Assembly (NCBI GenBank): GCA_009903905.1
Contig: WYEI01000022.1
Coordinates: 1-5,384, forward strand
Direction of reading: 5' to 3'
Origin: Pyrobaculum sp.
GTDB taxonomy: Archaea; Thermoproteota; Thermoprotei; Thermoproteales; Thermoproteaceae
Length of the DNA: 5,384 nucleotides
Part shown: positions 2,215-5,155 of the stretch, piece after piece
Numbering within the stretch: the stretch's first letter is position 1
Layout: each line of letters starts with the position of its first letter
Notes under the pieces: generated by a model
Seen by the model: only the letters and a program-made list of their open reading frames with translations
What the model was told of the DNA's origin: nothing
Database searches by the model: none
Program-made: the position numbers and the translations under genes

Positions 2215-2405
2215 CTATCTGGCGTCTACCGGCCGACTCAAGATGCAGACCCCCGGCAACTTTTTACGGTTCCGCACCTTGTACTCTGTGTATATTGCCG
2301 ACGCTTGGAAGACCCAGTCCACCGAGCCGTGGAGGACGCCGCGTCTAAAGACCTGCTCAAGTACCTTGTCAACTTCTCGACGGACCTAGGCGCAGGCTCA
2401 AGATA
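2215..2405 (-). pseudogene. Inverted, truncated PaRep2b remnant
   Basis: On the minus strand the frame through 2370-2281 reads DKVLEQVFRRGVLHGSVDWV and then FQASAIYTEY. This matches residues 23-53 of the intact PaRep2b in this window (LEEVLEEASTRGVLRGPVDW, then VFPAWATYVEY), and the DNA is also alike (CGCGGCGTCCTCC is identical). Upstream, the counterpart of LRL followed by GTCGAGAAG is in another frame, and a TAG (2386-2388) interrupts the reading frame. Downstream similarity ends by about 2280 and a stop follows at 2215-2217. It is a decayed N-terminal piece of a second copy, opposite in orientation to the intact gene. The plus-strand open frame over the same bases (2098-2406) is its shadow. 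The outer limits are approximate. Confidence 0.72.
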
Positions 2406-2768: not shown

Positions 2769-2962
2769 TTATAGACACGTCACTTCGATGTACTTAAGCT
2801 GACGCCTAAACCGTCTCTTGACGTCTTTCACAATTTCACAATTTTTGGACACAAAGCATTATCGATTTCAAACAATGCGCCTTCCAGATCCATTCCAGTC
2901 GGCCAAATCTGGTATGTTGTTGAAACGTAGCTTGCCACCATCTTCATGATGCGATGCGTCAT
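2769..2962 (-). pseudogene. Small unknown gene, apparently frameshifted by an 8-bp duplication
   Basis: From ATG 2962 the frame reads MTHRIMKMVASYVSTTYQIW, then PTGMDLEGALFEIDNALCPK and IVKL, ending at TGA 2828-2830 after 44 residues. The stop lies inside a tandem duplication of TTGTGAAA (complement of 2826-2841). Removing one copy keeps the frame open as IVKDVKRRFRRQLKYIEVTCL to TAA at 2769-2771, giving 61 residues with a basic C-terminus. The gene is divergent from PaRep2b, and the CCTGTNAG array lies just upstream of its start. I do not recognise the family. Codon use is more A/T-rich than in the flanking operons, as in the rest of the island. The 44-residue form may instead be the real, functional product. 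Confidence 0.42.
2826..2841. repeat. 8-bp perfect tandem duplication (TTTCACAA x2)
   Basis: TTTCACAA occurs at 2826-2833 and 2834-2841, and three further bases (TTT) match the next unit. It creates the stop codon of the minus-strand gene above. Confidence 0.9.
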
Positions 2963-2972
2963 CGGGTCTTCC

Positions 2973-3040
2973 CTAACAGGTACTCGTTCACAGGTACAAT
3001 TATGCCTGTGAGCCTGCACCTGTCAGTCTTTACCTGTAAG
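2973..3040. promoter_or_regulatory. Array of five CCTGTNAG sites (operator or iteron candidate)
   Basis: Plus-strand copies are CCTGTGAG 3005-3012, CCTGTCAG 3019-3026 and CCTGTAAG 3033-3040, exactly 14 bp apart. Minus-strand copies are CCTGTTAG (complement of 2973-2980) and CCTGTGAA (complement of 2987-2994), also 14 bp apart. The inner four are exactly symmetric about 2999.5. The array fills the gap between the divergent small gene (start 2962) and the PaRep2b TATA box (3047), with the fifth copy ending 6 bp before the TATA. This layout suits a cooperative dimeric regulator. An iteron-like replication site is an alternative. Confidence 0.65.
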
Positions 3041-3046
3041 GAGAAG

Positions 3047-3056
3047 GCTTATATAG
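3047..3056 (+). promoter_or_regulatory. TATA box upstream of PaRep2b
   Basis: GCTTATATAG is preceded by purine-rich AAGGAGAAG, which fits a TFB recognition element. It predicts a transcript starting at about 3076. A second, weaker TATA-like ACATATAC (3096-3103) lies about 23 nt before ATG 3122 and could give a leaderless message instead. Confidence 0.6.
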
Positions 3057-3121
3057 CTAACCGAAGAGAAGAGCCATGGAGTCAATTATGGTTCAACATA
3101 TACCGCGGCGTTTACCACGTC

Positions 3122-4576
3122 ATGGATATAAACAAAATTAAACAACGTCTAAAGCTCACGCTTAGGCTTGTTGAGAAGCCGCCGACGCTGGAGGAGGTGC
3201 TTGAGGAGGCCTCCACCCGCGGCGTCCTCCGGGGGCCTGTTGACTGGGTATTCCCGGCGTGGGCCACCTATGTCGAATACGCGGCACAGAGGATCGCCGA
3301 GACGTTTCAGCTTACAGAGGAGGAGAGGAGTCAGCTCCTTGACTTCAGAGACACAGTGAAGCGACTCCTACTGGAGGCGCAGAGGCAGGCCAAGGAGAAG
3401 CTGACAGCGCTGTACAAAGCCGTCGCCGAGGACACGTACAGGATTAAGGGGAAGAGGCTGTATGCGCCAGACGAGACGTGGATGGATATAAGAGGGGACT
3501 TCGCTCCGCGCATTATAATCCGCGGCGTGAGCGCCTCGGTGCGTTTTCCCGACGTGTTGAAGCTACCGCGCGAGAGGCTTGAACTGCTTCAGCTGGGCTG
3601 GAGGGCAAGCGACGAAGGTAATGAAAGGAGCCGACCCTACATGGGCACTACACAGCCCTGGCAGGTGTTCGCATGGACTGCGACGAGATACGGAGAGCTT
3701 TACATACGCGTCGCCTTGGTCAACCTAACGCAAGAGGGTGTAAGCGTATTGGTACATCTTAAGGCGAAGAGCTGGAGGCAGAGGTGGAGCAAGACGGAGG
3801 CCGTAGACCTCGCCGCGGGCCACCTCAGACGTGGGGAGTGGGCGCCCTTGCTAACTATGCGGCTTGGCGATGGCCAAGCCGAACGAAGGAAGGTATTAAG
3901 TAGCGAATACAAATTAATGATTGCAAATAAGGAGCCTTGGAGGTTGGGCAACAGCATAGGCACGAGAAAGGCCCTAGTCGCCACAGGCAAAGAGGCGTTT
4001 GTAAAGCTTAGAGAGGCGGCTGGCGTATACGGCGAACTGCTGGATCTGCTGAGGGCCCACAAGTGGATCTACATAAAGCTAGCCACAGACGACGGCTTTA
4101 GAGCCGCCTTCAAGCTGAAGGCTGAGAAGAGGAGCATAGACGTCCTTAGAGAGGCGTATAGGCAAAACAACGGCGAGATCCCTACGGAGCAGTTTTCACA
4201 CGCTGAGGCGGACAAACCGGGTGCCGTGGCTGCGGCGGGCGTCGTGATGCATCTCGAGCTGGTGAGCGGCAGAGGCGGCTCCCTCGTCGCTAAATACTTC
4301 ACCCGCGATGTCGGGAAGGCGCTCGCCGCCGCCGATAAGCTCAAGGCGGCTGGGCTGAGGCCCAACATTGTGAGATCCGGCCCAAACTACGTGGTGTACA
4401 TAGCCACCACGGACCTTCTAAAGCTTGCAGAAGAAGACGACGTCGTCAGAAGAGCCATAGCGCTGTATCTCGCCGAAAAGGCGAAGAACGGCACGCCGAT
4501 GCAGAGGGAGATCGCCGAAAAGCTCCTAAAGAGACATCCTCTTTTTCAATCTCCCAATGTCTTTCTGCATCCTTGA
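3122..4576 (+). CDS. PaRep2b family protein, 484 aa
   Basis: It belongs to PaRep2b, a multicopy repeat-associated family from Pyrobaculum whose function is unknown and many of whose copies are broken. Landmarks recalled for the family are RGVLRGPVDWVFPAW (33-47), MGTTQPWQVFAW (174-185), SHLRRGEWAPLL-like GHLRRGEWAPLL (about 232-243) followed by LGDG (248-251), KEPWRLG (270-276), HKWIYIKLATDD (313-324), VSGRGGSLVA (381-390) and NGTPMQREIAEKLLKRHPLF (456-475). The frame is intact, so this copy may be functional. ATG 3122 is chosen because the protein becomes family-like from there; the open frame reaches 2954 but the added residues cross the operator array and TATA box. No signal peptide or membrane segment is seen. 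The LGDG element recalls LAGLIDADG nucleases, which is inference only. Confidence 0.85.
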   Translation: MDINKIKQRLKLTLRLVEKPPTLEEVLEEASTRGVLRGPVDWVFPAWATYVEYAAQRIAETFQLTEEERSQLLDFRDTVKRLLLEAQRQAKEKLTALYKAVAEDTYRIKGKRLYAPDETWMDIRGDFAPRIIIRGVSASVRFPDVLKLPRERLELLQLGWRASDEGNERSRPYMGTTQPWQVFAWTATRYGELYIRVALVNLTQEGVSVLVHLKAKSWRQRWSKTEAVDLAAGHLRRGEWAPLLTMRLGDGQAERRKVLSSEYKLMIANKEPWRLGNSIGTRKALVATGKEAFVKLREAAGVYGELLDLLRAHKWIYIKLATDDGFRAAFKLKAEKRSIDVLREAYRQNNGEIPTEQFSHAEADKPGAVAAAGVVMHLELVSGRGGSLVAKYFTRDVGKALAAADKLKAAGLRPNIVRSGPNYVVYIATTDLLKLAEEDDVVRRAIALYLAEKAKNGTPMQREIAEKLLKRHPLFQSPNVFLHP

Positions 4577-4657: not shown

Positions 4658-4802
4658 CGTGGAACAGAGAGGTGAACGGAGGCGGCTGGGGCGTATATTG
4701 AATTGAACGCGTCGAGATTGCCGGCGTATGGAATCGGCACATCTCGCAACCGACACATAGAGTTAACTTCATCTATCCAGCCACGCCAGAAGAATCCGTG
4801 GA

Positions 4803-4895
4803 TGCGGCGGCCGGGATTTGAATTCCCGGGGTTTTCCCTCCCGGGATCAACGGCTTGGCAGGCCGCCATCCTAAACCAGGCTAGACTACCGCCGC
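4803..4895 (-). tRNA. tRNA-Gly (anticodon GCC) with a T-arm intron
   Basis: On the minus strand, acceptor GCGGCGG (complement of 4889-4895) pairs with CCGCCGC (complement of 4804-4810), with discriminator A at 4803 and no encoded CCA. The anticodon stem GCGGC/GCCGT encloses loop CTGCCAA, giving anticodon GCC. The variable loop is TGATC. T-stem CCGGG (complement of 4840-4844) is separated from TTCAAAT-CCCGG (complement of 4811-4822) by 17 extra nt. Removing these gives a normal 76-nt tRNA typical of archaeal tRNA-Gly. The gene is divergent from the CC1-like gene, and its 3' end faces the PaRep2b island. Confidence 0.95.
4823..4839 (-). other. tRNA-Gly intron (17 nt, position 53/54)
   Basis: The intron AGGGAAAACCCCGGGAA lies between the 5' T stem and the T loop, a non-canonical site. 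It can form GGG-AAAA-CCC next to the junction, a minimal helix for a relaxed bulge-helix-bulge. The boundaries are fixed because neither end base repeats across the junction. Confidence 0.85.
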
Positions 4896-4981: not shown

Positions 4982-5155
4982 ATGTCGAGGAAGCAGAAGC
5001 TAAAGTTCTACGACATTAAGGCGAAGCAGGCGTTTGAGACGGATAACTACGAGGTGGTTGAGAAGCAGACTGCCCGTGGGCCGATGTTGTTCGCCGTCGC
5101 CAAATCCCCATACACAGGCGTAAAGGTGTACAGGTTGCTGGGTAAGAAGAAATAG
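4982..5155 (+). CDS. Probable chromatin protein CC1, 57 aa
   Basis: The sequence MSRKQKLKFYDIKAKQAFET, DNYEVVEKQT, AKSPYTGVKVYRLLGKKK matches my recollection of CC1, a monomeric 6-kDa crenarchaeal DNA-binding protein found in Thermoproteus, Pyrobaculum and Aeropyrum. It has 11 lysines, including a terminal KKK. Alternating hydrophobic residues suggest a small beta-rich fold, and the conserved-looking KSPYTG turn is at 41-46. It would coat DNA together with Alba-type proteins. ATG 4982 fits the TATA box at 4951-4960 as a leaderless start; the TTG at 4970 does not. A T-rich terminator follows directly, so it is probably monocistronic. The coding assignment is firm and the family name less so. 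Confidence 0.7.
   Translation: MSRKQKLKFYDIKAKQAFETDNYEVVEKQTARGPMLFAVAKSPYTGVKVYRLLGKKK

Follow-up and report, generated by a model that had tools for sequence, protein, structure and literature searches.

A 14-bp-phased site array upstream of a putatively LAGLIDADG-like gene of Pyrobaculum, probably the control switch of an apparent tRNA-associated element

Several described systems provide points of comparison for the locus analyzed here. In the archaeal integrating element SSV1, the operators of F55, a small protein encoded by the element itself, are tandem ATAGATAG repeats located at the early promoters (PMC5569661). WhiA is a LAGLIDADG-derived regulator, which binds its own promoter at GACAC (PMC3781837). 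The PaRep repeats are numerous in the genomes of Pyrobaculum, in which the PaRep2b (PF07775) repeat genes have been called putative transposons (PMC3558965), and tRNA-integrated archaeal elements are known, as is a model of intron gain in tRNA genes (PMC3293823). The portions of the PaRep literature covered by the search state no mechanism for these repeats, and no paper on the array described below was found among the literature covered.

The window, the whole 5384-nucleotide stretch of DNA from the heat-loving archaeon Pyrobaculum that was analyzed, resembles the F55 system in carrying short repeated sites at the promoter of what looks like an archaeal integrating element, and differs from it in the sequence of the sites, their 14-bp phase, their mirror centre, and their number, which reaches seven in one relative. 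The array (2973–3040) contains five six-mers of the form RCAGGY/RCCTGY between positions 2976 and 3037, separated by steps of 14, 14, 14, and 14 bp, which bears out the spacing proposed for both strands in the initial annotation. The two distal sites (ACAGGT at 2976–2981 and 2990–2995, plus strand) face right, while the remaining three (GCCTGT at 3004–3009, ACCTGT at 3018–3023, and ACCTGT at 3032–3037, minus strand) face left. The inner four sites are, as claimed, mirror-symmetric about 2999.5, and their centre is the palindrome ACAGG-N10-CCTGT (2990–3009), a core that is also kept in copies of Thermoproteus CP80 that fall outside the array-bearing clade. The fifth site was correctly placed beside the TATA box, which it precedes by 11 bp (TTATATAG, 3049–3056, plus strand); the frame that would mirror it, at 2962, carries two mismatches, so that it stands without a partner. 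The description of all five sites as CCTGTNAG holds exactly for four of them (2973–2980 on the minus strand; 3005–3012, 3019–3026, and 3033–3040 on the plus strand), the fifth (2987–2994, minus strand) being CCTGTGAA, one letter off, and all five are exact in the RCAGGY/RCCTGY form.

Such an order had been considered very unlikely to arise by chance, a judgment that the shuffles uphold: a phased chain of at least three sites, with one gap allowed, never arose when the window was dinucleotide-shuffled 2000 times, in comparison with the chain of five in the real sequence. The CCTGTNAG motif occurs six times in the window, two of them outside the array, against an expectation of 0.73, and none of 200 shuffles had as many. 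Among the 172,662 five-frame stretches of the loci L001–L017, the best contains two perfect sites. In the whole genomes of WP30, CP80, and Bin S10, CCTGTNNG pairs at a 14-bp distance (at most one mismatch) number 5, 12, and 5, versus 7, 8, and 2 for the reversed control, and given that this loose pattern is not clearly commoner than its control, it is the phased clusters that stand out, and not the pairs as such. When phased repeats of other motifs were sought upstream of 17 copies of the gene, only the window exceeded a chain of two (shuffled upstream regions gave a chain of two in 293 of 300 cases and of three in seven), in a test that demands exact five-mers, and thus misses the imperfect array of L007. 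A protein-coding origin of the array, as implied by the annotation of two relatives (P0002 and P0004) with an N-terminal extension through it, was rejected because the frame hits stops in L007 and L015, by eye, and because a period of 14 bp is not a multiple of the codon.

The array was also held to lie between two divergent genes, which the window does not sustain, since the 63-aa open reading frame on its left (2828–3019, minus strand) has no match in Pfam or NCBIfam and no TATA box visible by eye, and finds no support as a gene. In some relatives, a small divergent gene does occupy the corresponding place.

The gene on the right (3122–4576, plus strand) encodes a protein of 484 amino acids, for which a LAGLIDADG-like fold is predicted with moderate scores at about residues 145–336 and, when these are folded alone, at residues 355–484. 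As with WhiA, which is itself among the fold matches of the protein, a predicted LAGLIDADG-fold protein would have candidate sites in its own promoter; families missing from the match lists are not excluded by their absence. WhiA has a C-terminal helix-turn-helix and has lost the catalytic residues, whereas in the window protein, neither a helix-turn-helix nor any other array-binding domain was identified by the family or fold searches, and three acidic residues, D164, E165, and D250, show no variation across 48 aligned rows. No LAGLIDADG chain was found among 19 PDB sequences at E values of up to 1, and no PDB sequence gave a useful match.

Like the PaRep2b genes, this gene belongs to a multi-copy family of the same archaea, and one PaRep2b gene of CP80 (L101, PF07775 at 55.2 bits) has, about 200 bp upstream, the four-site palindrome discussed below. 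Unlike them, the window protein matches no Pfam family at E values of up to 10, including PF07775 (curated cut-off of 20.4 bits), which is not listed for any of the 25 aligned relatives either, and reaches 17.0 bits, below the cut-off, in a single distant relative (L045) of the ten scanned. The alignment with a true PaRep2b protein by hhalign returned an E value of 0.044 over 65 columns, with a probability of 1.2. Given the missing PF07775 match, the gene is, at most, a distant relative of PaRep2b. Residues 612–651 of L101 (856–3792, minus strand), inside its PF07775 region, match LAGLIDADG_3 at an E value of 0.0046, below the cut-off, which hints that PaRep2b as a whole may be LAGLIDADG-derived.

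A leaderless upstream open reading frame of 21 codons (3076–3141, plus strand) overlaps the start of the main frame. All five of the clade copies examined have such a frame, of 15–21 codons, at the same place (starting at 5955 in L007, 5955 in L004, 5963 in L015, and 4124, on the reverse strand, in L083), where it begins 26–29 bp downstream of the first base of the TATA box. The main start was set in four copies, and in each of these the upstream frame overlaps it, an arrangement that may represent translational coupling.

The search for similar arrays upstream of other copies was answered in part. The phase and the 11-bp gap are kept at four gene loci, with between two and seven sites: the window itself, contigs C16 (L083) and C67 (L007) of CP80, and position 1.89 Mb of Pyrobaculum WP30. 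Contig C16 has seven consecutive frames, six of them perfect and one with a mismatch, and C67 has four, two perfect and two with one mismatch, both with the same phase and switch of orientation, while the WP30 locus has two perfect frames adjoining the TATA box. The distance from the proximal site to TTATATA is exactly 11 bp in all four. Many other copies have neither the array nor the palindrome, including L002, L004, five copies of Bin S10, and eight distant homologues in genomes of the family; L004, a WP30 copy of the same clade, has the same TATA box and no array. As array-free copies are this common, the array is not a general operator of PaRep2b.

On the family tree, the six rows with an array fall within a single clade of 22 rows (support of 98/100), four of them (the window, L007, L083, and L015) with the array itself, and two (P0002 and P0004) with an array inferred from the annotated extension; 15 of the 22 rows come without upstream DNA. 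The array label requires four changes on this tree, a number as low in 16 of 500 shuffles; L011 has a very long branch and a doubtful reading frame. Three-site patterns (up to two mismatches) match in five of the 19 genomes of the family of WP30, as the arrays of WP30 and CP80 and as single weak matches elsewhere, and two of these 19 genomes, again WP30 and CP80, match the DNA of the window region. In the order-wide scan (up to one mismatch), CP80 alone matches among 45 genomes, and the viral contigs contain no relative, by protein or by alignment, and no match to the pattern.

WP30 also has a solo array (1,431,442–1,431,509), with five frames (four perfect, one with a mismatch) in the same phase and with the same switch of orientation, and no family gene beside it. 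In L027 (1458–1519), which corresponds to this array, an exact 24-mer is shared with the window, though in inverted relative orientation. Positions 5867–5886 of L007, the central 20 bp of its array, are the exact reverse complement of window positions 2990–3009, which either an inversion or four transitions would explain. The solo array, and the fact that several copies of the family are broken, would fit a relic or a chance order with no present function, a reading that is scarcely credible in view of the 2000 shuffles and of the phase and TATA distance kept between genera.

The CP80 copies outside the array clade carry a related four-site palindrome, with a spacing of about 25-14-25. The outer steps are of 24–27 bp, mostly 25, which is equivalent to 14 plus about one helical turn, and the central step departs from 14 in L006 (15) and at one site of L001 (13); some of the outer sites are degenerate or absent. 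In 238,134 bases from 28 sources, ACAGG-N10-CCTGT occurs exactly 11 times, always upstream of genes of the family, at distances of up to 500 bp in nine cases and of 544 bp in L010, the last lying 481 bp ahead of the matched portion of L001's second gene, while spacers of 8, 9, 11, and 12 gave 0, 2, 1, and 1 matches; this sample leans toward the gene, being made up mostly of loci fetched for it. In whole genomes, the exact palindrome occurs 16 times in CP80 and 0–4 times in 18 others, with 0 and 0–7 occurrences, respectively, of the reversed control. Twelve of the 16 CP80 palindromes precede a gene of the family or of PaRep2b, which is truncated in one case. Open reading frames with no family assignment lie about 226–241 bp from those of C1 and C28, the palindrome of C44 has a sequence that is 23S rRNA in three loci checked, and that of C7 was left out of the assignment.

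In the CP80 copies outside the clade, 216–263 bp separate the palindrome from the protein match, and the divergent gene is often the closer of the two. A small divergent frame starts 66–84 bp from several palindromes, on the side away from the family gene, and is lacking at the near palindromes of L001 and L010; a Cys-rich, 58-aa form of its product has 26 homologues.

Ten CP80 sets, aligned without L101, L102, L103, L105, and the near palindrome of the second gene of L001, sit within long palindromes, and the conserved feature could, on this basis, be a long hairpin or cruciform of DNA or RNA in which the CAGG sites form the stem. A 136-nt region of L003 folds at a z of −9.6, 8 of 18 pairs in the ten sets have two-sided changes, more than plain protein sites need, and neither the paired cells nor the covariation score was equalled in any of 500 shuffles. 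Against this, 49 of the 500 shuffles had at least as many pairs with two-sided changes, and 450 had at least as many further pair types. The window array folds at a z of −2.0 only, six of 200 shuffles folding as well, which indicates that the pairing is not common to the two groups, and most of the region would lie outside the expected leaderless transcripts. A structural role thus appears improbable as the main explanation, and the two-sided changes stand as a point against the operator reading adopted here.

The surroundings of the gene point to the tRNA genes. In the window, the 3' portion of a tRNA, comprising the T arm and acceptor with the anticodon arm ahead of them, was recognized at 2650–2705 on the minus strand, from its similarity and by eye, and is directed away from the array; this fragment resembles Rfam tRNAs in L066 and L049, and is itself unlisted by Rfam. 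An intact tRNA lies at 4803–4895 (minus strand), convergent with the gene, with its 3' end toward the 3' end of the gene; it was found by Rfam, whereas ARAGORN reported no tRNA in the window. The fragment and the tRNA have the expected places and directions, but by eye the fragment does not derive from that tRNA. An N-terminal fragment of a second family copy (2281–2366, minus strand, opposite to the gene) adjoins another tRNA-like stretch (2011–2145), and since this inverted fragment lies beside a further tRNA-like sequence, the region may have received more than one insertion.

The borders are clearest in CP80. In L083, a perfect 30-bp repeat of the 3' end of a tRNA flanks the gene and its array, 2040 bp apart, with an intact tRNA on the 3' side of the gene. 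The arrangement in L007 is similar, with a repeat of 17+17 bp, split in the intact tRNA (in the region 7340–7700), which carries a T-loop insert that is absent from the border fragment. Both copies thus resemble the tRNA-integrated elements, with the 3' repeat of the tRNA at the borders and an intact tRNA at one end, and the insert of L007 accords with the intron-gain model (PMC3293823). They differ in the length of L083, 2040 bp from repeat to repeat, and in having a LAGLIDADG-like protein and no integrase seen. The divergent frame of L083 was considered as one that might continue across the tRNA repeat, as in the SSV-type integrases, and was discarded, as it stops after seven further codons. 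Inspection by eye also showed T-loop inserts in the window at 2011–2145 and in the tRNAs adjacent to L004 and L011, and none in those of L001, L006, L008, L015, and L083.

The other 17 of the 19 copies compared, including the window and L015, which have no direct repeat at the borders, have no tRNA repeat near both of their ends. For the second gene of L001, a T-arm repeat of 16 bp lies at a distance of over 1 kb, and the remaining copies have no repeats or short, unrelated ones. The gene of L008 is flanked by a 69-bp direct repeat of 80% identity (4666–4734 and 8400–8467), not from a tRNA, whose downstream copy abuts a tRNA, possibly as a shared end of the element. A tRNA convergent with the gene and at most 300 bp from its 3' end is found in seven of 18 copies, a count that omits the fragmentary L017 and the second gene of L001. 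Four of these tRNAs were recognized by Rfam (the window, L001, L004, and L011), and three by the T-arm pattern or by eye (L007, L015, and L083), being unlisted at the Rfam threshold; L002, L003, L005, L006, L008, L009, L010, L012 (with only 160 bp of flank), L013, L014, and L016 have none. Overall, the gene seems to be part of a tRNA-associated element.

This context keeps an iteron or recombination site in play. The phased sites might be arm-type binding sites for the complex that integrates or excises the element, near its tRNA-derived end, given that the array is located between the gene and the tRNA 3' fragment in the window, L007, and L083, that tRNA repeats, perfect in L083, flank the gene and array in L083 and L007, and that the centre of L007 is reversed relative to the window. 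This role, the main alternative, seems unlikely, since no array is present 3' of the window gene, where the interval from the site at 3983 to that at 5114 is free of ACAGG/CCTGT, the sites keep a fixed distance of 11 bp to the TATA box in all four loci, and the homology of several CP80 copies continues past the palindrome into the divergent gene; no integrase or recombinase domain was found among the eight window frames scanned. Short phased repeats in variable numbers with a near-palindromic centre would also suit the iterons of a replicating free form of the element, or a centromere-like site on it, a reading that is very unlikely considering that the same eight frames include no replication protein and that tblastn (1e-5) did not find the gene in 50,697 phage or 72,556 plasmid records.

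The operator reading fares better. The array at 2976–3037 is, with fair probability, a cooperative operator of the tRNA-associated element, that is, the probable control switch of what looks like a mobile element beside tRNA genes. The layout itself, with a symmetric nucleation site and half-sites added outwards in a single phase that ends at the promoter, corresponds to that of a cooperative operator, and the conservation of phase, orientation, and TATA distance in diverged copies supports a dedicated one. This agrees with the early proposal of a dedicated regulator, except that the gene it serves has no PF07775 match and is at most distantly related to PaRep2b. In this reading, the palindromic centre (2990–3009) would nucleate the binding of a dimer, the bound protein would spread cooperatively along the sites at every 14 bp, ending just upstream of the BRE/TATA region, and the operator would set the timing of production of the endonuclease-like protein by the element. 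The sites, their phase and symmetry, their distance to the TATA box, and their conservation in part of the family can be read in the DNA; the binding of a protein, its cooperativity, and the sign of control are inferred. In some relatives, the operator sits between the promoter and the small divergent gene, and may control both. The element itself most likely encodes the binder, for which the LAGLIDADG-like protein and the small divergent one are the candidates. Self-binding by the former, by analogy with the autoregulation of WhiA, is a possibility to be entertained with some doubt.

Together, the proposed operator, conserved in part of the family, the predicted endonuclease-like fold, and the clean tRNA borders of one copy turn the PaRep repeats into an element open to testing. 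In a more speculative and rather unlikely extension, a single LAGLIDADG protein would both break the DNA for integration and coat the phased array, silencing its own promoter and that of its divergent partner, as PaRep2-like repeats invade the T-arm ends of tRNAs, with T-loop introns of the L007 type forming a barrier. Apart from this extension, the PaRep repeats provide a concrete case for the view, modelled in PMC3293823, that tRNA introns arise together with the elements that target tRNA genes or serve as a defence against them.
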